From Streptomyces venezuelae (GTDB taxonomy: Bacteria; Actinomycetota; Actinomycetes; Streptomycetales; Streptomycetaceae): a stretch of 64,000 bases of DNA. Below are positions 2,568 through 28,415 of this stretch, in pieces. The notes under the pieces were generated by a model. It ran no database searches. It saw nothing but the letters and a program-made list of their open reading frames with translations, and had not been told where the DNA came from. Location: assembly GCF_008642295.1 (NCBI RefSeq), contig NZ_CP029190.1, positions 1,674,001 through 1,738,000 on the forward strand. Direction: 5' to 3'. Position 1 is the stretch's first letter; the number at the start of each line of letters is the position of its first letter. The position numbers were made by a program, and so were the translations under genes.

Positions 2568-3887
2568 TCAGGCGCGGCCTGCGGTCTTCTGCGTCTTGCG
2601 GGTGACCGAGTCGATCACCACGGTGGCCAGCAGCACCGCACCGGTGATCATGTACTGGATCGGTGTGGCGATGCCCTGCAGGGCGAGACCGTACTGGATC
2701 GAGGTGATGACCATGACACCGAGGAGGGCGTTCCAGGTCCGGCCCCGGCCGCCGAAGAGGCTGGTGCCGCCGATCACGGCCGCCGCGATCACGTTCATCA
2801 GCAGGTCGCCGGCGCCGGCGCTCTGGTTGGCCGCCGCGATCTTGGAGGCCCAGAAGAGGCCGCCGATCGCCGCGAAGGTGCCCGCGATGGCGAAGACCGA
2901 GATGCGGATCAGGTCCACGTTGATGCCGGCCCGCCGGGAGGCCTCGACGCTGCCGCCCAGGGCGAACACCTTGCGGCCGAAGCCGGTGCGGCGGAGCAGG
3001 AAGTCGGTGCCGACCAGGACCAGCACGAAGAGCAGCACCGCGAGCGGCATGCCCTTGTACTGGTTGAACACGGCGGCGGCGCCGAAGGCCACCGCGGCGA
3101 GCAGCCCGGTGCGGAGCAGGATCTCGCTCAGCGGCCGGAAGGGCACGCCGGCCTCGGCCCGGCGCCGGGCGTCCAGGAAGGAGCCCCCGAAGTACACCGC
3201 GACGGCCACCGCGGCCAGCCCGTAGGCGGCGGCGACATCGGAGAAGTAGTACGTGGTGAGCTTGCCGACCACGCCCTCGGAGTCGAGGTTGATGGTGCCG
3301 TTGCTGCCGAGCAGCTGGAGCATGAATCCGGACCAGAACAGCAGGCCCGAAAGGGTGACGGCGAAGGCCGGGGCGCCGATCTTGGCGAAGAAGAAGCCGT
3401 GGATGGCGCCGATCAGGGCACCGCCCGCGATGGCGGCGAGCACCGCCAGCCATTCGTTCACGCCGTGGGTGACGGCGAGGACGGCGACGATCGCGCCGGA
3501 GACTCCGCTGACCGAGCCGACCGAGAGGTCGATCTCGCCGAGCAGCAGCACGAAGATGATGCCGACGGCCATCATGCCGGTGGCGACCATCGTGACCGCG
3601 ATGTTGTTGATGTTCTCGGCGGAGAGGAAGTTCGCGTTCAGGCTCTGGAAGATGGCGCAGATGACCACCAGGCCGATGACGACCGGCAGCGAGCCGAGGT
3701 CGCCGGCGCGGAGCTTGCGCCTGAACTCGCCGAGGTAGCCGGCCAGGCCCTGCTCGCGGACCAGCAGGCGCGGGTCGACGGCCGGGATGGCGTCTCCGGC
3801 GGCGGCCGGGTTGACGACCTCGTGGTCCGCCTTGGCGACCGGGGCCGCCGGGGCGTGGGCGGTCTTCGCCGTGTTGTCGGTGCTCAC
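2568..3887 (-). CDS. xylH: xylose-type ABC transporter permease
   Basis: A polytopic inner-membrane permease of the branched-chain-amino-acid/ribose/xylose (BPD_transp_2) family, 439 residues. After a soluble N-terminal tail of about 65 residues come roughly ten hydrophobic segments. The family signature with GEIDLSVGSVSG lies around residue 125, and a late NVIAAAVIGGTSLFGGRGR loop contacts the ATPase. The GTG start overlaps the xylG stop as GTGA, so the two are translationally coupled; a GGGAGG sits upstream within xylG. Together with xylG and xylF it should import xylose or a related pentose. Symbols follow the S. coelicolor xylFGH operon, whose position next to dxs and the ROK gene is conserved. 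Confidence 0.88.
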   Translation of the reverse strand: MSTDNTAKTAHAPAAPVAKADHEVVNPAAAGDAIPAVDPRLLVREQGLAGYLGEFRRKLRAGDLGSLPVVIGLVVICAIFQSLNANFLSAENINNIAVTMVATGMMAVGIIFVLLLGEIDLSVGSVSGVSGAIVAVLAVTHGVNEWLAVLAAIAGGALIGAIHGFFFAKIGAPAFAVTLSGLLFWSGFMLQLLGSNGTINLDSEGVVGKLTTYYFSDVAAAYGLAAVAVAVYFGGSFLDARRRAEAGVPFRPLSEILLRTGLLAAVAFGAAAVFNQYKGMPLAVLLFVLVLVGTDFLLRRTGFGRKVFALGGSVEASRRAGINVDLIRISVFAIAGTFAAIGGLFWASKIAAANQSAGAGDLLMNVIAAAVIGGTSLFGGRGRTWNALLGVMVITSIQYGLALQGIATPIQYMITGAVLLATVVIDSVTRKTQKTAGRA

Positions 3888-4663
3888 TTGCGAGCCTCCC
3901 CGGTGCGGGCCGCCCGGCGGGTCACGGCGTTGTCCGTGGCGCCCGTGATGGCGGAGATGATCTCTTCCTGCGAGGTGTCGGCGACATTGAAGACACCGTT
4001 GTTGCGGCCCAGCCGCAGGACCGCCACCTTGTCGGCGACGGCCTTCACATCGGCCATGTTGTGGCTGATGAGGATGACGGCGTGGCCGCGCTCGCGCAGC
4101 CGCTCGACCAGGTCGAGGACCTGGGCGGTCTGCTCGACGCCGAGGGCCGCGGTGGGCTCGTCGAGGATGACCAGCCGGGGGTCGCCGAGCATGGAGCGGG
4201 CGATCGCCACGGTCTGGCGCTGGCCGCCGGAGAGCGAGGCGATGGGGATGCGGACGCTCGGGATGCGGATGGAGAGGGTGGTGAGCAGCTCGCGGGCGCG
4301 CCGCTCCATCTCCACCTCGTCGAGGATGCCGCGGCGCTTGAGCTCGCGGCCGAGGAAGAGGTTGCCGACCACGTCGATGTTGTCGCAGAGCGCGAGGTCC
4401 TGGTAGACCGTCGCAATGCCCAGGTTCTGGGCGTCGTGGGGCTTGCTGATGGAGACCGGGCGGCCGTCCCACTCGATGACCCCGTCATCGATGGGGTGGA
4501 CTCCGGCGATCGTCTTGACGAGCGTCGACTTGCCGGCGCCGTTGTCGCCGACCAGGGCGACCACCTCACCGGAATGGATCTCGAGTTCTACGTCGGTGAG
4601 GGCCTGGACGGCACCGAATCGCTTCGAGACCCCTCGCAACGCCAGCACGGGCGCAGCGGACAC
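3884..4663 (-). CDS. xylG: xylose-type ABC transporter ATP-binding protein
   Basis: A single ABC ATPase domain of 259 residues, about half the size of the two-domain E. coli XylG. Walker A GDNGAGKST is at 39-47, signature LSGGQ at 144-148, Walker B with LVILDEP near 164-170, and the H-loop is in LISHNMADV. It energises uptake through XylH. I chose the GTG at 4663 because GAAGGAG lies nine bases upstream; the ATG three codons earlier directly abuts that Shine-Dalgarno, and a longer frame begins at 4708. Its stop overlaps the xylH start by four bases. A gap of about 145 bases separates it from xylF, so xylF may be expressed at a higher level. Confidence 0.88.
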   Translation of the reverse strand: MSAAPVLALRGVSKRFGAVQALTDVELEIHSGEVVALVGDNGAGKSTLVKTIAGVHPIDDGVIEWDGRPVSISKPHDAQNLGIATVYQDLALCDNIDVVGNLFLGRELKRRGILDEVEMERRARELLTTLSIRIPSVRIPIASLSGGQRQTVAIARSMLGDPRLVILDEPTAALGVEQTAQVLDLVERLRERGHAVILISHNMADVKAVADKVAVLRLGRNNGVFNVADTSQEEIISAITGATDNAVTRRAARTGEARK

Positions 4664-4808
4664 GTGAATCATCTCCTTCGCCGCCTGACCGGCGGGGATG
4701 CCTTGCATTTACGTTTCTGCCCGGCGCCCCGCGGGTGGCGGGGGGGATGAGGGGCGGGGCGCCGGGCAGGTGTGCGGGCCCTCCTCCCGAAGGGGAGGGC
4801 GGCGGCGG

Positions 4809-5921
4809 CTACTTGAGGCCGGCGGCGTCGCAGGCGGCCTTGTACTTGTCGGTGCAGATCTCGGCGACCGAGTAGACGTTGTCGCGCACCACGGTGTCGG
4901 CGATGTTGGCCTTGGTCAGCGATACCACCGGGATCAGCACGGACGGAACGCCCTTGGTGGTGGGGCTGTCCACGGTGGACTGGGCGATCGTCTTGATGTC
5001 CTCGTTCTTGGCGAGGGCGACGGCCAGCTTCGCGGCGGCTTCGGCCTCCGGCGCGTACGGCTTGTAGACGCTCATGAACTGCTCGCCCGCCACGATCCGC
5101 TGGACACCGGCGAGTTCCGCGTCCTGGCCGGTGACCGGGGGCAGCGGGTCGACGCCGGCCGCCTTGAGGGCGGTGATGATGCCGCCGGCCATGCCGTCGT
5201 TGGCGGAGTAGACGCCGACGATCTTGTCCTTGCCGAGGGCCGAAATCGCCGCCGCCATGTTGGTGTTGGCGTTCTCCGGCTTCCATTCCTTGGTGTCGTA
5301 CTCCTTGCCGACGGTGACCTTGCCGTCGAGCTGGGAGTGCGCGCCCTTCTTGAACAGCGCGGCGTTCGGGTCGGTGACCGAGCCGTTCATCATGACGATC
5401 TGGCCGGATTTGGCCTTGTCGCCCAGGGCTTCGAGCAGGGCCTTGCCCTGGACCTTGCCGACCTCTTCGTTGTCGAAGGAGGTGTAGGCGTCGATGGGAC
5501 CCTCGGCGAGGCGGTCGTAGGCGACGACCGGGATACCGGCGTCCTTGGCCTTCTTGACCGCGCCGGCGATGGCCTTGGAGTCCACCGCGTCCACGATCAG
5601 GACGTTCACCTTGGCGGTGATCATCGTCTCGACCTGGGAGTTCTGCGTGGTCGCGTCCTGCTTGGCGTTGGCGTAGAGCACCTCGCCCTTGCCACCGGTG
5701 AGTTCGGCGACCTTCTTCTCTATCAGCGGCTTGTCGAACTTCTCGTAGCGCGCGGTCTGGTTCTCCGGCAGGAGCAGACCGACCTTGATCGCGTCACCCA
5801 CGGGCGCTGCGGAGTCCTTCGGCTTGTCGCCGGCCTCCTTGGCGCTCCCGCAGGCGGCGAGCGAGGCAGCCATTGCGGTGGCGGCTACGGCGACGGCGGC
5901 TCTACGCATACGCGTGTTCAT
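4809..5921 (-). CDS. xylF: xylose-binding lipoprotein of sugar ABC transporter
   Basis: A 370-residue periplasmic-binding-protein type 1 lipoprotein. The signal peptide ends in the lipobox LAAC, with Cys24 as the lipidated residue, so it is anchored outside the membrane. The mature protein has the two-lobed sugar-binding fold (IKVGLLLPENQTARYEKFD, VLIVDAVDS, GVYSANDGMAGG, PVTGQDAEL), resembling XylF of Streptomyces. It delivers sugar to XylH. The start is ATG with GGGAGG upstream. It is the first gene of xylFGH, downstream of the ROK regulator on the same strand, and an inverted repeat that probably serves as operator lies in front of it. Confidence 0.9.
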   Translation of the reverse strand: MNTRMRRAAVAVAATAMAASLAACGSAKEAGDKPKDSAAPVGDAIKVGLLLPENQTARYEKFDKPLIEKKVAELTGGKGEVLYANAKQDATTQNSQVETMITAKVNVLIVDAVDSKAIAGAVKKAKDAGIPVVAYDRLAEGPIDAYTSFDNEEVGKVQGKALLEALGDKAKSGQIVMMNGSVTDPNAALFKKGAHSQLDGKVTVGKEYDTKEWKPENANTNMAAAISALGKDKIVGVYSANDGMAGGIITALKAAGVDPLPPVTGQDAELAGVQRIVAGEQFMSVYKPYAPEAEAAAKLAVALAKNEDIKTIAQSTVDSPTTKGVPSVLIPVVSLTKANIADTVVRDNVYSVAEICTDKYKAACDAAGLK

Positions 5922-5994
5922 TTCCTGAACCTCCCTGACGAGGCCGCAACACCGCGGCCGAGGTGGATGTGAGTCAACCCCGGCCGCGATTTGC

Positions 5995-6017
5995 CGTCAA
6001 GGAGTGAATCCTTAACG
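5995..6017. promoter_or_regulatory. inverted repeat in the xyl promoter, probable ROK operator
   Basis: Arms CGTCAAGGA and TCCTTAACG (nine bases each, one mismatch) flank the spacer GTGAA. On the minus strand the first arm includes a TTGACG that could be the -35 box of xylF. Position and symmetry fit repression by the adjacent ROK protein. Assignment of the binding protein is inference. Confidence 0.55.
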
Positions 6018-6038
6018 AGATGACAACGGTGCCATCCG

Positions 6039-7253
6039 TTATCTAACTGAAGACAAGACCTGGGGAGCCTGCATCCCGCCGCCCCTGCCCAGCAAAAGCG
6101 TCGAATCGCCCATCTCGCTCAGTACGAGGGCCAACGCGCCGAGGACTTCGGCCCGTGCGCCCAGCGATCCCGTCAGCACCGACAACTGCCGGGCGGCGCT
6201 GGGAATCGCGTACCTCCCCACTGATTCACGGATGGGAGCCAGCACCAGTTCACCGGCATCCGCAAGCGATCCGCCCAGGACCACCCGGCTGGGGTTGAGC
6301 AGGTTGCACAGACTGGCCACCCCGCTGCCCACATGGCGGCCCACGTCCGTGATCACCCGGCGGCAGCCCGGATCGCCCTCCCGGGCCAGCTCGACCACGC
6401 GCTCCATGGTGAGTTCGGGCCCGTGGCTGCCCTGGAGCAGCGGCAGGACGTAGCGGGCGGCGGCGAAGGTCTCCAGGCAGCCCCGGTTGCCGCAGCGGCA
6501 GACCGGCCCGGACTCGTCCAGGGTGATGTGCCCGATCTCGCCCGCGGTGCCGCCCGGCCCCCGGTAGATCTGCCCGTTTATCACCAGCCCGGCGCCGACA
6601 CCGCTGGCCACCTTGATGTACGCGAGGTCCTTGACCCCCCGGCCGCTCCCCCAGACCAGCTCGCCGAGCGCGCCGAGGTTGGCGTCGTTGTCGACGTACA
6701 CCGGCACGCCCAGGCGCCGGGAGAGCTCCTCCCGGGGGTTGATGCCGGCCCAGCCCGGCAGGATGGCGGTGGAGCCGAGGGTCCCGGCTTCCACGTCGAT
6801 CGGGCCGGGCACGCCGAGGCCTACCCCGATCACCTTCTCCCGGACCGTGCCGACGTCCTCGATCAGCCGTCCGACCAGGTGCTCCGCCCGGTCGAACCCG
6901 TCCACCCAGGAGGCGTCCACGTCCAGTGGCTCGGTCTCCTCGGCCAGCACCTGGTGCGCGAGGTTGCCGACCGCCACCCGGAGGTGGGTGTGGCCGAAGT
7001 CGACGCCGATCACGATGCCCGCGTCTCCGCTGAGCGAGACGCTGCGGGCCCGCCGGCCGCCGGCCGAGGTCGGCGTGACCTCCACGGTCCCGCCGTCCTT
7101 CAGCTCCCGGACGATATTGGAGACCGTGGCCGCCGACAGTCCGGTGGTACGGGCGATCTCCGCCTGGGTCAGCGAACCGGCGAGCCGGACGGCACGCACC
7201 ACCCGCTCGAGATTCGCGCGGTGCAAGGACGACTGCGAACCCGGAGTCTCCAC
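6039..7253 (-). CDS. rok7B7: ROK-family transcriptional repressor of the xylose locus
   Basis: A 404-residue ROK repressor. The N-terminal winged HTH (SLTQAEIARTTGLSAATVSNIV) spans roughly residues 25-60. The ROK sugar-kinase-like domain follows, with VIGVDFGHTHLRVAV, the GPGGTAGEIGHITLD motif and the zinc-binding CRCGNRGCLE. The start GTG at 7253 is preceded by GGCAGGAG ten bases upstream; the frame is open further, to 7316. Its place directly upstream of xylFGH and near ngcEFG matches SCO6008 (Rok7B7), described in S. coelicolor as controlling xylose uptake and linked to carbon control and antibiotic production. It probably binds the inverted repeat at 5995-6017. Confidence 0.85.
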   Translation of the reverse strand: METPGSQSSLHRANLERVVRAVRLAGSLTQAEIARTTGLSAATVSNIVRELKDGGTVEVTPTSAGGRRARSVSLSGDAGIVIGVDFGHTHLRVAVGNLAHQVLAEETEPLDVDASWVDGFDRAEHLVGRLIEDVGTVREKVIGVGLGVPGPIDVEAGTLGSTAILPGWAGINPREELSRRLGVPVYVDNDANLGALGELVWGSGRGVKDLAYIKVASGVGAGLVINGQIYRGPGGTAGEIGHITLDESGPVCRCGNRGCLETFAAARYVLPLLQGSHGPELTMERVVELAREGDPGCRRVITDVGRHVGSGVASLCNLLNPSRVVLGGSLADAGELVLAPIRESVGRYAIPSAARQLSVLTGSLGARAEVLGALALVLSEMGDSTLLLGRGGGMQAPQVLSSVR

Positions 7254-20268: not shown

Positions 20269-21798
20269 ATGGCAGACGACTACCTCGTACGCATCGGCAA
20301 GCTCATCCGTGACGCCCGGCAACACCGGGGCTGGACGCAAAGCCAACTCGCCGACGCCCTCGGCACCAGCCAGAGCGCCGTGAACCGGATCGAGCGCGGC
20401 AACCAGAACATCAGTCTTGAGATGATTGCCCGCATCGGCGAAGCGCTCGACAGCGAGATCGTCTCCCTGGGTTACGCCGGCCCGATGCACCTGCGCGTCG
20501 TCGGCGGCCGTCGCCTGTCCGGCGCCATCGACGTCAAGACGAGCAAGAACGCCTGCGTGGCCCTGCTCTGCGCCTCGCTCCTCAACAAGGGCCGCACGGT
20601 CCTGCGCCGGGTCGCCCGGATCGAAGAGGTCTACCGGCTGCTGGAGGTCCTGAACTCCATCGGCGTACGCAGCCGCTGGATCAACGGCGGCGTGGACCTG
20701 GAACTGGTCCCGCCTGCCCGGCTCGACATGGACGCCATGGACGCCGACGCCGCCCGCCGCACCCGGAGCATCATCATGTTCCTGGGCCCGCTGCTGCACC
20801 GGATGGACCACTTCCGGCTGCCCTACGCGGGCGGCTGCGACCTCGGCACCCGCACCATCGAGCCGCACATGATCGCGCTGCGCCGGTTCGGCCTGGACAT
20901 CACCGCGACCGAGGGCATCTACCACGCCCGGGTCGCCTCCGGCGTCAGCCCCGACCGGCCGATCGTGCTGACCGAACGCGGGGACACGGTCACCGAGAAC
21001 GCACTGCTCGCCGCGGCCCGCCACGACGGCGTCACCGTCATCCGCAACGCCTCCTCCAACTACATGGTCCAGGACCTGTGCTTCTTCCTGGAGGCCCTCG
21101 GCGTGAGGGTGGAGGGCATCGGCAGCACCACCCTCACCGTCCACGGCGTCCCGAACATCGACGTGGACGTGGACTACTCCCCCTCCGAGGACCCGGTCGA
21201 GGCCATGAGCCTGCTGGCCGCGGCCGTGGTCACCGAGTCCGAACTGACCATCCGCCGGGTCCCGATCGAGTTCATGGAGATCGAGCTCGCGGTCCTGGAG
21301 GAGATGGGCCTGGACCACGACCGCTCGGAGGAGTACACGGCCGACAACGGCCGCACCCGCCTGGTCGACCTCACGGTGCGCCCCTCCAAGCTCGAAGCCC
21401 CGATCGACAAGATCCACCCCATGCCGTTCCCCGGGCTGAACATCGACAACGTCCCGTTCTTCGCGGCGATCGCGGCGGTGGCGCAGGGCCAGACCCTGAT
21501 CCACGACTGGGTGTACGACAACCGCGCGATCTACCTGACGGACCTCAACCGCCTCGGCGGCCGGCTCCAACTCCTGGACCCCCACCGCGTCCTGGTGGAG
21601 GGCCCCACCCGCTGGCGCGCAGCGGAGATGATGTGCCCGCCGGCCCTCCGACCCGCCGTGGTGGTCCTCCTGGCGATGATGGCGGCGGAGGGCACGTCGG
21701 TACTGCGCAACGTGTACGTCATCAACCGCGGCTACGAGGAACTGGCGGAACGCCTGAACTCGGTGGGCGCCCAGATCGAAATCTTCCGCGACATCTAG
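20269..21798 (+). CDS. murA2: MurA-like UDP-GlcNAc carboxyvinyltransferase with N-terminal XRE HTH
   Basis: A 509-residue fusion. Residues 1-70 form a Cro/CI-type HTH (WTQSQLADALGTSQSAVNRIERG); residues 75-509 are an EPT/RTPC enolpyruvyl transferase fold. MurA adds enolpyruvate from PEP to UDP-GlcNAc, the first peptidoglycan step. The active-site Lys-Asn pair is present (KTSKNA), as are the loop cysteine (GGCDLGTRTIE, equivalent to E. coli Cys115) and a catalytic Asp (FPGLNIDN). It may therefore be an active enzyme, a sensor that uses the fold to bind UDP-GlcNAc, or both. Position beside acnA matches SCO5998. ATG start, with no clear Shine-Dalgarno. Confidence 0.85.
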   Translation: MADDYLVRIGKLIRDARQHRGWTQSQLADALGTSQSAVNRIERGNQNISLEMIARIGEALDSEIVSLGYAGPMHLRVVGGRRLSGAIDVKTSKNACVALLCASLLNKGRTVLRRVARIEEVYRLLEVLNSIGVRSRWINGGVDLELVPPARLDMDAMDADAARRTRSIIMFLGPLLHRMDHFRLPYAGGCDLGTRTIEPHMIALRRFGLDITATEGIYHARVASGVSPDRPIVLTERGDTVTENALLAAARHDGVTVIRNASSNYMVQDLCFFLEALGVRVEGIGSTTLTVHGVPNIDVDVDYSPSEDPVEAMSLLAAAVVTESELTIRRVPIEFMEIELAVLEEMGLDHDRSEEYTADNGRTRLVDLTVRPSKLEAPIDKIHPMPFPGLNIDNVPFFAAIAAVAQGQTLIHDWVYDNRAIYLTDLNRLGGRLQLLDPHRVLVEGPTRWRAAEMMCPPALRPAVVVLLAMMAAEGTSVLRNVYVINRGYEELAERLNSVGAQIEIFRDI

Positions 21799-23780: not shown

Positions 23781-24045
23781 GCCCAGCTCCCCGACGACGC
23801 TCCGTCCCCCAACACGTACTGCCAGTCAGTCCTACCGCGTCCCCGGCGACCGTACGTTCAAGACGCGGAAACGGACAGCACCCGCTCCTCCACCAGAAGG
23901 TGAAGGTCACCGCATCCCGCACCGAGGGGAGCTGACCGCCGTCGTCCACGAGCTGCACAGTCACGGGATCGTCCGCATCGCCCACGTGCGACCCGGGAAC
24001 GGCATCGAGATCACCACGGCGGCCGACAACATCGAGCCCGCCTGA
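23779..24045 (+). CDS. possible small protein, unknown
   Basis: The last 45 codons (HRGELTAVVHELHSHGIVRI to the stop at 24043-24045) have typical Streptomyces third-position GC and look coding. The preceding 30 codons do not (many A/T third bases and Pro/Lys/Arg residues). The only in-frame ATG is 23779, which overlaps the divergent XRE start. The gene may be 5'-truncated or use an unrecognised start. It lies on the same strand as, and 107 bases before, the peptide gene at 24153. Confidence 0.3.
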   Translation: MPSSPTTLRPPTRTASQSYRVPGDRTFKTRKRTAPAPPPEGEGHRIPHRGELTAVVHELHSHGIVRIAHVRPGNGIEITTAADNIEPA

Positions 24046-24096
24046 CCCATAGACCCCCGCTCTGCACTTCCTACGGCCCAGGGCGGGCAGCACCAC

Positions 24097-24119
24097 CCCC
24101 TGCCGGAACCCCGGCGGGG
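24097..24119 (+). terminator. hairpin upstream of the peptide gene
   Basis: CCCC and GCCGG, separated by one bulged T, pair with CCGGCGGGG around an AACC loop. It ends 33 bases before the peptide ATG. It could terminate upstream transcription or be a 5' UTR structure. Confidence 0.45.
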
Positions 24120-24152
24120 ACAGTGCACGACCGAGATCAAGGAGGACTCGTC

Positions 24153-24296
24153 ATGAACCAGAAGACCGAAGTCGCCGCGACCGAGACCAACGAGAAGCAG
24201 GCGGACACCATCCGGGACAACGTCGCGGCGTTCCGCGCCGAGGACAACGCGTCGATGATGGGCGGCTGGACCGACGCCGCGCCCGCCGCCGAGTAA
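24153..24296 (+). CDS. 47-residue peptide, putative RiPP precursor
   Basis: The ATG has a strong ribosome binding site (AAGGAG eight bases upstream). The N-terminal part (MNQKTEVAATETNEKQADTI) is polar and charged like a leader peptide. The C-terminal part from about residue 27 (FRAEDNASMMGGWTDAAPAAE in two blocks around MMGG) holds Asp, Asn, Ser, Met and a single Trp that could be modified. A perfect 14-bp hairpin follows, then a gene for a HExxH-type peptide-modification protein. Small gene, hairpin, enzyme is the usual RiPP layout. No known precursor family was recognised, and there is no radical SAM, LanM/LanB or YcaO gene nearby. Confidence 0.6.
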   Translation: MNQKTEVAATETNEKQADTIRDNVAAFRAEDNASMMGGWTDAAPAAE

Positions 24297-24327
24297 CCGG
24301 CCCCGGCACCACAGCACGACACCCACG

Positions 24328-24362
24328 CGTGCCCCGGGCGACCGTAATTCGCCCGGGGCACG
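24328..24362 (+). terminator. attenuating hairpin between peptide and enzyme genes
   Basis: A perfect 14-bp stem (24328-24341 with 24349-24362) with a CCGTAAT loop starts 31 bases past the peptide stop and ends before the ribosome binding site of the enzyme. It would allow excess peptide mRNA with partial read-through into the enzyme gene. Confidence 0.7.
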
Positions 24363-24388
24363 TTCCCATCTTCGCCCAAGGAGCACCC

Positions 24389-25252
24389 GTGCGGTTCCTC
24401 AACGTGCACCACGCCCGCGAGACCGTCAGCCGGCTCGTCCACGCCCTCGACGGCGAGCACACCACCCCGGACACCCTGCCGGCCGCATACCGTCGGATCA
24501 TCACAGGCATGCGGCCGATCGCCCCGCCCGCGGTCGGCGTCCGCGTCTCCTTCCTGGACGACCCGTGGGGACGGAACCTGGTCAAGAACGAAACCTTCGC
24601 GAACATCTTCGAGGGCCTGGCCGACACCTTCGAGGACCAGCGCATCACCTGGGGACGCGACTTCAAGGCCTCCATGGTCTACACCCACGACGTGATCCCC
24701 GACCTGGGCGCCCTGGTGGACCTGGTGGTGACCGATACGGTCATGTTCTCCTCCGCCAACAAGGGCGGCGGCAGCGCCTCGCACCTGCCCGGCCTGATCA
24801 GCATGAGCCCCGGCGACGACTGGCAGGTCCACGACTTCGCCGAGTCCCTCGTCCACGAGACGGTGCACCTGAACGTGTTCCTCGCGGACATGGCGTACCG
24901 GCTCTACACCCGGCCGACGAAGGAACTGGAGGCCGACGAGTACCGCGTGGTGTCGGCGGTGAAGTTCGGGCAGATGCGCCCGCTCGACAAAGCGTTCCAC
25001 TCCGCCGTGGTCGCCCCGCCCCTGATGTTCATGCAGGCCCGCCGCGGGGAGACCGAGCTGGTCGACAAGTTCCGGGCCAGCCTGCGGGAGTGCACGGACG
25101 GCTTGCTGGACAAGCTGGAGCATTTCACGCCGTACGGCCAGGTGCTCGTCCACGAGCTGCGGACCTTCACCGACGACTACGACATGGAGCTGGTGGCAGA
25201 GTCGATCTCCAGTGAGCGCTTCGCGCACTGGGACCTGACGCCGGCCGCCTGA
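24389..25252 (+). CDS. HExxH-motif peptide-modification protein (putative aKG-dependent peptide beta-hydroxylase)
   Basis: A 287-residue protein of the HExxH peptide-modification type (TIGR04267-like). The motif SLVHETVHLNVF gives His156, Glu157 and His160; His204 in PLDKAFHSAVVA is a candidate third ligand. Sequence around it (MFSSANKGGG, HLPGLISMSPGDDW, and AVVAPPLMFMQARRGE) follows the family pattern. These proteins occur alone or fused to radical SAM maturases in RiPP clusters, and characterised members hydroxylate peptide side chains with iron and 2-oxoglutarate. The start is GTG with AAGGAG five bases upstream. The gene before it encodes the likely substrate peptide. Confidence 0.7.
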   Translation: MRFLNVHHARETVSRLVHALDGEHTTPDTLPAAYRRIITGMRPIAPPAVGVRVSFLDDPWGRNLVKNETFANIFEGLADTFEDQRITWGRDFKASMVYTHDVIPDLGALVDLVVTDTVMFSSANKGGGSASHLPGLISMSPGDDWQVHDFAESLVHETVHLNVFLADMAYRLYTRPTKELEADEYRVVSAVKFGQMRPLDKAFHSAVVAPPLMFMQARRGETELVDKFRASLRECTDGLLDKLEHFTPYGQVLVHELRTFTDDYDMELVAESISSERFAHWDLTPAA

Positions 25253-25256
25253 CCGT

Positions 25257-25928
25257 CTACGGCTCCAGCCTGATCCCGGCGTCCCGTGCGAGGGCCACGG
25301 CCAGCTCCATCCCGCCCGGCCCCTGCACGGCGGCGCCCTTCAGCGACGCCGCCCCGCCCACGTCCACCAGCGTGCAGTCCTCGAACCGCAGCCGCTGGAC
25401 CTGGACGTTGGCGAACTGGGCGCCGGTCAGGTCGCACGACCGGAACTGCACATCGCGCAGCTCCGCGAACTGGAAGTCGGCCCCCGTGAGGTTGCAGCCC
25501 TCGAACGTGACGGCCTTGAACTTCGAGTGGCGCCACAGCGACAGGTCGGCGCGGCTGTTCTCGAACCTCACGTCGTGGAAATGCGACTTCGACCAGGAGG
25601 CGCCGGTGATCCGGCTGGCGAACACCTCGGCGCGGACCAGGGACGTGTCCTGTGCCCGGACGGTGGCGAAGTCGCAGGTCTGGAACGTTGCATCGGAGAA
25701 CACCACCTGCCGGGTGTTCATCCCGGTGAAGCGGGCGTTCTCGAACCGGACCTGCTCGGCCTCCGCCAGTTCCACCGCGTGCCCGACGAAGACGTCGCCG
25801 TTGTACTCGACGCCCCGGATCATCGCGTCCTCGACCAGGGCGTCATCCGGCATCCTGGCCGGCCGGAAGGTGATCCGGTTGCGGGGGGCTTGGGGGTTCC
25901 TCGGGCGTACTGCTGTCACGGAGGGCAT
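25257..25928 (-). CDS. pentapeptide-repeat protein
   Basis: A 223-residue protein dominated by pentapeptide repeats of the A(D/N)LXX type (FENARFTGMN, FSDATFQTCDF, FEGCNLTGADFQFAELRDVQF, RSCDLTGAQF), which fold into a right-handed quadrilateral beta-helix. Roles in the family range from gyrase protection to scaffolding, and none is assigned here. The start is set at ATG 25928 because TAGGGT lies eight bases upstream with no Shine-Dalgarno, the arrangement of leaderless Streptomyces transcripts. It converges on the HExxH gene with a four-base gap. A role as immunity factor for the peptide locus is possible but unproven. Confidence 0.8.
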   Translation of the reverse strand: MPSVTAVRPRNPQAPRNRITFRPARMPDDALVEDAMIRGVEYNGDVFVGHAVELAEAEQVRFENARFTGMNTRQVVFSDATFQTCDFATVRAQDTSLVRAEVFASRITGASWSKSHFHDVRFENSRADLSLWRHSKFKAVTFEGCNLTGADFQFAELRDVQFRSCDLTGAQFANVQVQRLRFEDCTLVDVGGAASLKGAAVQGPGGMELAVALARDAGIRLEP

Positions 25929-25983
25929 GGCGCCGGACCCTAGCACCCATTCACCCCGGTATGGGGTGGAATGTGTAAAGAGG

Positions 25984-26493
25984 TCAGCCCTCCGCCCATG
26001 ACGGGGCGATCACGCCTTCGGCCTGCGGCAGCTCCTCCGCCTCCGCGGGCACAGCCATTGGCGCCGTCCCGCTACCGCGCTTGAGCTTCTCGCGGACCCA
26101 GTCCCTGGTCGTCCACGGCGCCGTCGCCCCGTACTGCTGCCGCTCCCACACGGTCAGCTGCAGCCACGGGTGGTTCAGCTGCACCATCGGTGTCCGCGGG
26201 CCCGTCGACTTCGGCATCCACGCGGGCAGGCCGTCCTCCAGCAGACGCTCCTCCGGCGGCAGCTTGTCCATCCTCGCCAGCTCGTACTTCGCCCTGCCCT
26301 GCCGGGTCATCCACTCGACCACGGGTGCCTCATCCAGCCACTGCACGGGACGGCCGCGGTCGTCGTGCACCACCGCCGGGGTCACCATCCAGCCGGGCGG
26401 CCTTTCGTGGCTGTAAGGGACCACCGGCGCCGGCGGCTTCGGCAGACGGTGCGCCGGCAGATCTGCGGGTGGGTGCAGCCGCCGCCGGTGCAT
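25984..26493 (-). CDS. hypothetical protein
   Basis: A 169-residue hydrophilic protein with a Pro-rich N-terminus (LHPPADLPAHRLPKPPAPVVP) and Trp-containing segments (RPPGWMVTPAVV, VVEWMTRQGRAKYEL, QLNHPWLQLTVWERQQYG, WTTRDWVREKLKRG). No signal peptide, membrane segment or known domain was recognised. ATG 26493 is chosen over the GTG at 26514 because CAGGAG lies ten bases upstream. The isolated setting in the accessory region suggests a laterally acquired gene. Confidence 0.5.
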   Translation of the reverse strand: MHRRRLHPPADLPAHRLPKPPAPVVPYSHERPPGWMVTPAVVHDDRGRPVQWLDEAPVVEWMTRQGRAKYELARMDKLPPEERLLEDGLPAWMPKSTGPRTPMVQLNHPWLQLTVWERQQYGATAPWTTRDWVREKLKRGSGTAPMAVPAEAEELPQAEGVIAPSWAEG

Positions 26494-26670: not shown

Positions 26671-28415
26671 CTACGCGCCGAGGAGCCTCCAGAGCTGGTT
26701 GCGGTTGCCCTGTAGGCCGTGGTGGCAGAGCTTGGCACCGCTGCCGGTGGAGGCGTTGGTGACGCTGATCGCTCCATTGCGGTAGTCGGACACGATGAAG
26801 TACTCGTTCTGGGCGACGGGGAGTACCCGCCATTTCTGGTGCGAGGCGTCCCTCCAGGTCCACAGGTTGATGTCGGGGGCGTTGCCGGGGTAGGGGCCGT
26901 GGATCGACATCACGCGGGTGGGGGCGAAGACGGAGGTGAAGTTGTAGAGGCCGCCGCCCAGGTTCCTGAAGTCCCACCGCTGGTGGGACTGGTCCCACCA
27001 CGGTTGCTGTCGGATGGAGGGGCTGTCGTCGTTGTAGGGGCCGTCGATGGTGGCGAACTTGCCGCTGATCACGGACTCCAGCCGCACCCGGGGAGGCACC
27101 CCGTTGACCTGGCCCGAGGCATCGGGCAGCAGCAGGAATCCGACCTCCCATTTCCCGTCGCTACCGGCGTCGAAGACCAGCGCCGACTTGGAGACCCGGA
27201 AGGCGCCCAGTCTCAGGAGCATGTCGACCATGGGTTCGCTGATACGGGTCAGCGCGGCGACCTTGCGCACCACCCCCTCGGGCGGGGGGTTGCGCAGGGT
27301 GTCCTGGATCTGCTTCTGCAGCATCAGCACCGGTTCGGGTACCAGCAGCGAGTAGGTGCCGATGTGATCGTCCTGGTTCGTCAGGATCTGTTTGATGAAG
27401 CTGAGGATCATCGCGAACATCGCTACGGCCGCCGGCGGAATCCCGACGCCCGTGAGCTCACCGATGACGGTTTCGACCATGTCCGCCCAGGTCTCGATCG
27501 ACAGCTCGGCCATCAGGATCCTGAGGATCTCGTCGATGATCATCTTGGCCTTCGCATCGCCGCCGCCGTGGTCCATCTCCCAGGCGTCGATCACCGTGGC
27601 AAGTCCGCCGCCCGCGACCGTGGTGTTCCACACCCGGTTCGGCTCGAAGGCGCGGGTGTCGCCGGTGTTCATGCTGAACTGCTCGCTGGTGTAGTGGCGC
27701 TGAGTCGTCCCGTCACAGAGCGCCAGCCAGAACTTCGGTTCGTCCTTTCCCCATTCGTTCGACTCGCGGTGGCAGGTGAGGTAGTCGAGCGACATCCAGT
27801 ACTTGCCCGCGCCGCCGCCGGATCGTGCGGTCGCGATGGTGGGGTGGTCGAGGGGCAGGCCCAGGCAGACCAGTCCCCAGCCCTTGTCGGCGGTCTCCTG
27901 CAGGAATTCCGCGCTGGGCTCGGGGGCGGCGACCTCCTGCAGGGCCTGCGCCTGGGCGTCGTCACCGAGCGGGCCCATCGGGCGCGTGGCGTCCACCACG
28001 TGAATGTTCTTGCACGTGGTGAGAAACTCCCGGCCCAGCTGCGGCAGATCGGCCCGCAGGTCGGCAAGACGTACGAGTCCTCCACACCCAGAGCGGCGAA
28101 ACGCCCGGGGAAGAACCTCCCGCGGACCTCCGGCGCCGCCGTGCTGAAGGCCTGCCCCATCTCGCCGAGCTCGTCGGCCGTGAAGCCCGCACGGGTGAAT
28201 GCGTTCGTGAAGACGCTCTCCAGGTCGGACAGGGGCTGCCCGGCCGCGTGCCGGGCGAAGCCGTTGAGCATCACGGCCAGCAGGACGTTGGTGGAGCTGC
28301 TGTGCTCCATCCTCTCCACCCTCTGCGTGCGGACTTCCGTACCGCCGAGCACGCCGCAGATACCGGCCACCACGTCCCGCTTGAACTCATCGCCGTCGTT
28401 GACGACATCAGTCAT
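26671..28415 (-). pseudogene. frameshifted gene for a protein with C-terminal ricin-type beta-trefoil
   Basis: Two abutting frames make one gene. The 5' part starts at ATG 28415 (GGAGG seven bases upstream) and reads to ALGVED. One base is missing between 28077 and 28076; restoring a C gives LVRLADLRADLPQLG and continues without a stop to 26671. The C-terminal 130 residues form a beta-trefoil with three QxW signatures (HQRWDF, HQKWRV, NQLWRL), a carbohydrate-binding fold. The middle has a hydrophobic stretch (GIPPAAVAMFAMILSFIKQIL). There is no signal peptide. The break is either a real mutation or a sequencing error in CCTCC/GGAGG context. If intact, it would be a lectin-like protein of about 580 residues. 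Confidence 0.7.

Follow-up and report, generated by a model that had tools for sequence, protein, structure and literature searches.

Described relatives of the locus

Peptide hydroxylases of the aKG-HExxH type (TIGR04267/IPR026337), among them the HExxH domain of ChlB (8s5f), BpmH, PflC/PosC and PesO, are encoded next to the precursor peptides of ribosomally synthesized and post-translationally modified peptides (RiPPs). The preprint PMC12636437 describes hydroxylation of Gln together with oxidative cleavage by PflC/PosC, and earlier hydroxylation of Asp and His by a fused radical S-adenosylmethionine (SAM)-HExxH protein, while PMC13060819 extends hydroxylation of this type to Pro. PMC7726476 reports on a TIGR04267-containing cluster of Pseudomonas in which antibiotic activity dropped when the precursor gene was lost and was not restored by complementation; loss of the HExxH gene of the same cluster gave no such drop. 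Here, we analyze a locus in a 64,000-nucleotide stretch of Streptomyces venezuelae DNA (contig NZ_CP029190.1, positions 1,674,001 to 1,738,000; hereafter, the window), in which a gene for a 47-residue peptide is followed by a gene for an enzyme of this type and, in convergent orientation, by a gene for a pentapeptide-repeat protein. This cassette resembles the aKG-HExxH systems in family score, overall fold, adjacent precursor, and in its HExxH and RPxxxxxH residues (RPxxxxxH by comparison with ChlH alone), but it has no conserved second modifier, and its core, MMGGW(T), is one for which we found no description in the openly licensed literature.

The repeat protein has its own relatives in the gyrase-linked proteins EfsQnr, MfpA, AlbG and McbG and the product of gene E of the speirobactin cluster. 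Gene E is proposed in PMC12406682 to encode a self-resistance repeat protein, with McbG mentioned likewise, and AlbG is presented as a self-resistance repeat protein in PMC8145042. The protein at our locus shares with this group a predicted beta-helix with a 12-residue C-terminal helix, as well as a position beside a peptide gene and its enzyme, but it is only ~20% identical to solved members, is only mildly acidic, and belongs to a clade tied to the HExxH cassette. In Nostoc, the repeat protein HetL is described as providing immunity to the short peptides PatS/PatX by shielding HetR (PMC7476756). The repeat protein of the cassette would resemble HetL in this respect, although no HetR-like regulator is conserved in the cassette loci, and PatS is not known to have an HExxH modifier. 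In the openly licensed literature, the terms HEXXH and pentapeptide repeat appeared together in none of 20 matches listed, out of 62, in a RiPP context. Finally, the sublancin region of phage SPbeta is a RiPP with its immunity gene on a prophage, which is also where some copies of the cassette are found, but its modification chemistry and immunity protein differ.

Linkage and conservation of the three genes

The near-constant ending of the peptide and the joint travel of the genes, in soil bacteria and some prophages, suggest a peptide of an undescribed kind, antibiotic-like or signalling, that comes with its own antidote. We consider it probable that the peptide, the HExxH enzyme and the repeat protein form a self-contained minimal RiPP cassette, the last of them serving as its dedicated protector. 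Comparative analysis shows linkage, core invariance, leader variability, covariation of an intergenic hairpin, the fold assignments, co-occurrence, and an asymmetric pattern of losses. The features of the locus, in window coordinates, are:

24139..24145, + strand: AAGGAGG ribosome binding site of the peptide gene (direct read)
24153..24296, + strand: precursor peptide gene, 47 residues, ATG start (open reading frame and homologues)
24153..24254, + strand: variable leader, residues 1-34 (peptide alignment, mean column identity 35%)
24255..24272, + strand: core MMGGWT, residues 35-40 (MMGGW invariant in the aligned peptides)
24273..24293, + strand: C-terminal tail DAAPAAE (tail missing or mostly a single residue in other genomes)
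24328..24362, + strand: hairpin of 14 perfect pairs between peptide and enzyme genes, probable attenuator (folding and covariation)
24378..24383, + strand: AAGGAG ribosome binding site of the enzyme gene (direct read)
24389..25252, + strand: aKG-HExxH-type enzyme, 287 residues, GTG start at 24389 (TIGR04267 score and fold)
24854..24868, + strand: HETVH, residues 156-160, with H156 and H160 as putative metal ligands (invariant in 14 diverse members)
24977..25000, + strand: R197-P198-L199-D200-x3-H204 (14-member alignment; RPxxxxxH aligned in the ChlH sequence)
25257..25946, - strand: pentapeptide-repeat protein, convergent with the enzyme (Pfam PF13599, 1.6e-23; conserved neighbour, alignment and model)

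Used as the only query of a protein search, the peptide returned a single relative, 85% identical, and the survey was therefore run through the enzyme, with which 86 other proteins were found at E 0.001. An alignment (A1) of 48 of the 87 hits located 23 loci in genome contigs and 7 in IMG/VR. Searches of genome samples with it gave at least 16/394 Streptomycetaceae, at least 2/394 in the class sample (the source genome and one congener), at least 1/244 in the phylum of a cyanobacterium (the genome of its locus, L026, itself), and at least 3/150 in the family of an Actinomadura locus, L012 (one a contig-edge fragment), all of which are lower bounds, as part of the first-look candidates were scored. 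Querying plasmids with the single enzyme returned 6 records, two of them close, and enzyme relatives were also found in Vibrio and Endozoicomonas. With duplicates merged, 31 close loci and the 7 from the viral collection make up a set of 38, in which the near-identical L077 and L079 are both retained, the contig-edge fragment L069 is left out, and several flanks are short.

An open reading frame (ORF) encoding MMGGW lies upstream of the enzyme, on the same strand, in 35/38 loci, such that the peptide does have homologues and these co-occur with this HExxH subfamily. A first-pass annotation of this DNA had described a minimal locus of peptide and enzyme; the pair holds, but the conserved unit also takes in the adjoining repeat protein, which is likewise present in 35/38 loci. 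The association between core and repeat protein (34/1/1/2) has a Fisher p of 0.013, with relatedness ignored. Considering ORFs of at least 70 residues in 24 loci, the repeat protein is the sole further gene present in all, whereas no other modifying enzyme, protease, exporter or regulator is conserved throughout, in keeping with the earlier suggestion that the HExxH protein may be the sole modifier. A helix-turn-helix and DUF5753 regulator lies near the cassette at L007:4573-5445 and similar positions, its cluster (one member checked) being represented in 11/24 loci. The repeat protein is convergent with the enzyme in 23/24 loci, whereas in the cyanobacterium both are encoded on one strand; in the window, the two stop codons are 4 bases apart, and the repeat protein likely starts at the ATG at 25928, where its homologues begin. 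Divergence of the enzyme and of the repeat protein is correlated (Mantel r 0.76; 0/2000). Full members of the repeat-protein clade, scoring 317-376 bits, against no more than 120 bits for full-length repeat proteins outside the clade, occur in at least 20/394 genomes, and the enzyme adjoins the clade member in 14 of these 20.

The peptide ORF and its excellent ribosome binding site were both recovered as first annotated, and a conserved C-terminal core is indeed present: MMGGW is invariant in 29/29 aligned peptides, which were selected by the presence of MMGGW, and is followed by Thr in at least 90% of them, while mean column identity over the peptide alignment is 35%, indicating that leader and core evolve differently. 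With tblastn, the peptide matched at least 7/394 genomes, each time directly upstream of the enzyme. A protein database search yielded 72 peptides including the query, 71 with MMGGW and one with MMGGC; this search seeds on shared five-residue words and is thus core-biased rather than independent, and our locus counts are taken from the enzyme searches. Where named in the database rows shown, the peptides are hypothetical or uncharacterized proteins. In the cyanobacterial locus, the Gly and Thr codons carry other third bases without any change of amino acid, a sign of selection at the protein level; dN/dS is 0.16 for the window pair and ranges from 0.28 to >4 elsewhere (crude estimates with small dS). 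A six-frame translation of the window contains a single MMGGW, and each of 23 related loci (269,870 bases in all) likewise contains exactly one. No MMGGW is present in 17 further loci (169,606 bases), but most of these were chosen after showing no core near the enzyme, so that the only fair control is the set of four additional HExxH loci from the source genome. These TIGR04267 loci (L070-L073) have neither MMGGW nor this repeat protein within ~6 kb. Enzyme linkage and the conserved core rule out the peptide as a random ORF.

Enzyme, repeat protein and intergenic hairpin

The assignment of the enzyme as a TIGR04267-like HExxH protein is upheld by a score of 65.4 bits against a cut-off of 40, and its model matches the solved aKG-HExxH fold, being the zincin-like fold of the ChlB HExxH domain; the sequence gave no Pfam match at E 1, and a single-sequence search against solved structures likewise gave none at E 1. 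H156, E157 and H160 are invariant across 14 diverse members, as are R197, P198, L199 and H204, with D200 nearly so. A weak sequence alignment with ChlH (E 0.0007) shows a His in the position of H204, which is a probable third metal ligand; R197 is a possible co-substrate contact. By analogy with relatives, which hydroxylate several residue types and also cleave the backbone, the enzyme would be a peptide hydroxylase. We note that the zincin-like fold would also suit a metallopeptidase that releases the C-terminal core from the precursor with no oxidation, and PflC is described as hydrolyzing when the leader is missing (PMC12636437); we consider this reading quite improbable for the present enzyme.

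The model of the repeat protein is a quadrilateral beta-helix with a 12-residue C-terminal helix, of the Qnr/MfpA/AlbG type with its dimerization helix. Proteins of this type carry an acidic, DNA-like surface; the net charge of the whole protein is -2 here, within a range of -7 to 0 in 24 members. The best natural fold matches are EfsQnr (gyrase-associated), PENT (function unconfirmed) and AlbG (gyrase-protecting), all ahead of HetL. This ranking weighs against the main alternative to a toxin with its antidote, in which the product would serve as a cell-to-cell signal, with the repeat protein guarding a regulator from it in the manner of HetL: the candidate partner for such shielding is missing as a gene conserved in all 24 loci, and the prophage neighbours and orphan protectors described below fit a toxin-immunity pair better, such that we regard a signalling role as unlikely.

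Between the peptide and enzyme genes, the annotated 14-bp perfect hairpin was found where it had been placed, 31 bases past the peptide stop (stem 24328-24341 / 24349-24362). The 111-nt stretch containing it folds with -48 kcal/mol (z -3.05; 1/200 shuffles equally good). In an alignment of 23/29 loci, 13 pairs are formed in 96% of cells and 9 show two-sided changes, and 0/500 shuffles attain any of the five measures used. L010, L011, L012, L017, L026 and L060, in which this stem was not visible by eye, were excluded from this alignment beforehand; when folded later, L010 and the cyanobacterial L026 showed other hairpins in the gap, L060 folded differently, and the Actinomadura loci L011, L012 and L017, with peptide-enzyme gaps of only 28-35 bases, gave weak folds. 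The hairpin is thus common but not obligatory, and most likely acts as an attenuator. No Rfam family was matched at gathering score in 23900-26100, nor was a canonical T-run terminator or sigma-70 promoter found in this region.

Losses, orphan repeat proteins and mobility

Loci that depart from the standard arrangement do so asymmetrically. On a Streptomyces plasmid (L052), HExxH is replaced by RQAVH, the peptide lacks MMGGW, and there is no repeat protein within ~4 kb; L059 (5300-6364) has an intact HExxH, no repeat protein, and a peptide with a leader-like N-terminus and an unrelated C-terminus, possibly a core swap; L060 retains the core but has an unrelated sequence at the enzyme end and lacks the repeat protein; and L080 has a disrupted core with enzyme and repeat protein retained. 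Conversely, among the six of the 20 genomes with a full clade member that have no adjacent enzyme, the repeat protein is accompanied in L081 by an enzyme without its middle, HExxH included, and in L082 by the enzyme tail only; no enzyme is found near those of L083, L085 and L086, and L084 lies at a contig edge where enzyme status is not judgeable. Half-length repeat proteins in two more genomes (L087 and L088, 156-160 bits) have neither an enzyme nor a core in their vicinity. The combination of full-length enzyme and intact core without a repeat protein occurs in 0/38 loci. Judging from these sequences, loss of the enzyme need not entail loss of the repeat protein, which in some cases then degenerates. 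That it survives enzyme loss, and that the reverse is never seen with an intact core, is the pattern of an immunity gene.

Cofactor precursors such as that of pyrroloquinoline quinone (PQQ) also combine a constant core with a variable leader, and the product of the cassette could on this basis be an invariant small molecule, a cofactor or a metal binder, with the repeat protein as carrier or scaffold rather than protector. We consider this very improbable, given that a full-length repeat protein is kept in five genomes with no complete enzyme nearby, and that the distribution is patchy in the genome samples above (16/394, 2/394 and 1/244, each as a minimum) and lies partly beside phage genes.

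In L052, a radical SAM gene accompanies the pseudo-enzyme and a peptide ending in STMGCGTE (3781-6142), and the dead enzyme may serve as a leader-binding scaffold for another modifier. A radical SAM partner was rejected for the cassette itself, as it is no conserved neighbour across the 24 loci. More distant HExxH relatives (~24-34% identity) occur on Staphylococcus/Cytobacillus plasmids and in Bacillus phage SPbetaL1 (L054, L055, L056 and L058), with short peptides that end differently, the three plasmid ones containing MQ[IL]H; in the three plasmids, a major facilitator superfamily (MFS) transporter gene lies near the relative.

The seven IMG/VR loci raise the possibility that the cassette is prophage cargo for lysogen competition or phage exclusion, its peptide acting on cells or phages that lack the protector, a role compatible with the antidote reading but in our view distinctly unlikely. 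A check for phage genes covering L076, L077, L078 and L080 found a portal gene adjoining L076, terminase and integrase genes adjoining L078, a serine recombinase near L080 and DNA polymerase A near L077, and the SPbetaL1 relative, with its other peptide, points the same way. However, phage structural genes are alongside in only two loci, five of the seven lie close to contig or provirus ends, and neither enzyme nor repeat protein matched a PADLOC defence model (0 families at E 0.001). The window itself is probably not a prophage: it contains no tRNA, and ten nearby frames searched against Pfam include chromosomal-type genes for a solute-binding protein, an aconitase and a LacI-type regulator, with seven left unnamed. 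Elsewhere in the window are a helix-turn-helix fused to a MurA/EPSP-synthase-like domain (20269-21798, + strand; PF01381 and PF00275) and, shortly downstream of the cassette, a ricin-type beta-trefoil lectin domain protein (26671-27999, - strand; PF14200).

In the mechanism we propose for a peptide with its own antidote, the peptide would be made in excess, with the hairpin passing only part of transcription to the enzyme gene, and the variable leader would present the constant C-terminal core to the oxygenase. Using iron, 2-oxoglutarate and oxygen, as is known for the family, this enzyme would oxidize a single residue of the core, either hydroxylating it or cleaving the backbone at the hydroxylated carbon as in PflC/PosC. 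A protease encoded elsewhere may then free a short product, which would hit a conserved cellular target, as implied by a core that is constant across two phyla, and the repeat protein would bind this target to protect the producer. Because repeat proteins from biosynthetic clusters (AlbG, McbG and the product of speirobactin gene E) have links to gyrase, we tentatively put forward a type II topoisomerase (gyrase) as this target, at somewhat less than even likelihood; charge and fold of the repeat protein are no proof of it. The fullest version of this proposal, in which the cassette is the smallest oxidized RiPP pathway known, with a lone HExxH oxygenase, a core constant from actinobacteria to a cyanobacterium, a gyrase-targeting peptide, a repeat-protein antidote, travel on prophages and orphan antidotes in non-producers, appears somewhat unlikely to hold in all its parts.

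If the cassette is what we propose, it would represent a RiPP family that searches based on precursors or modifiers may miss, because its peptides, where databases name them, go by hypothetical or uncharacterized protein and the cluster lacks a second modifier that would draw attention to it. The cassette would also offer a two-gene test bed for HExxH chemistry, in which the natural losses of core, catalytic motif and enzyme are built-in controls, and would allow a resistance-guided guess at the target of the peptide.
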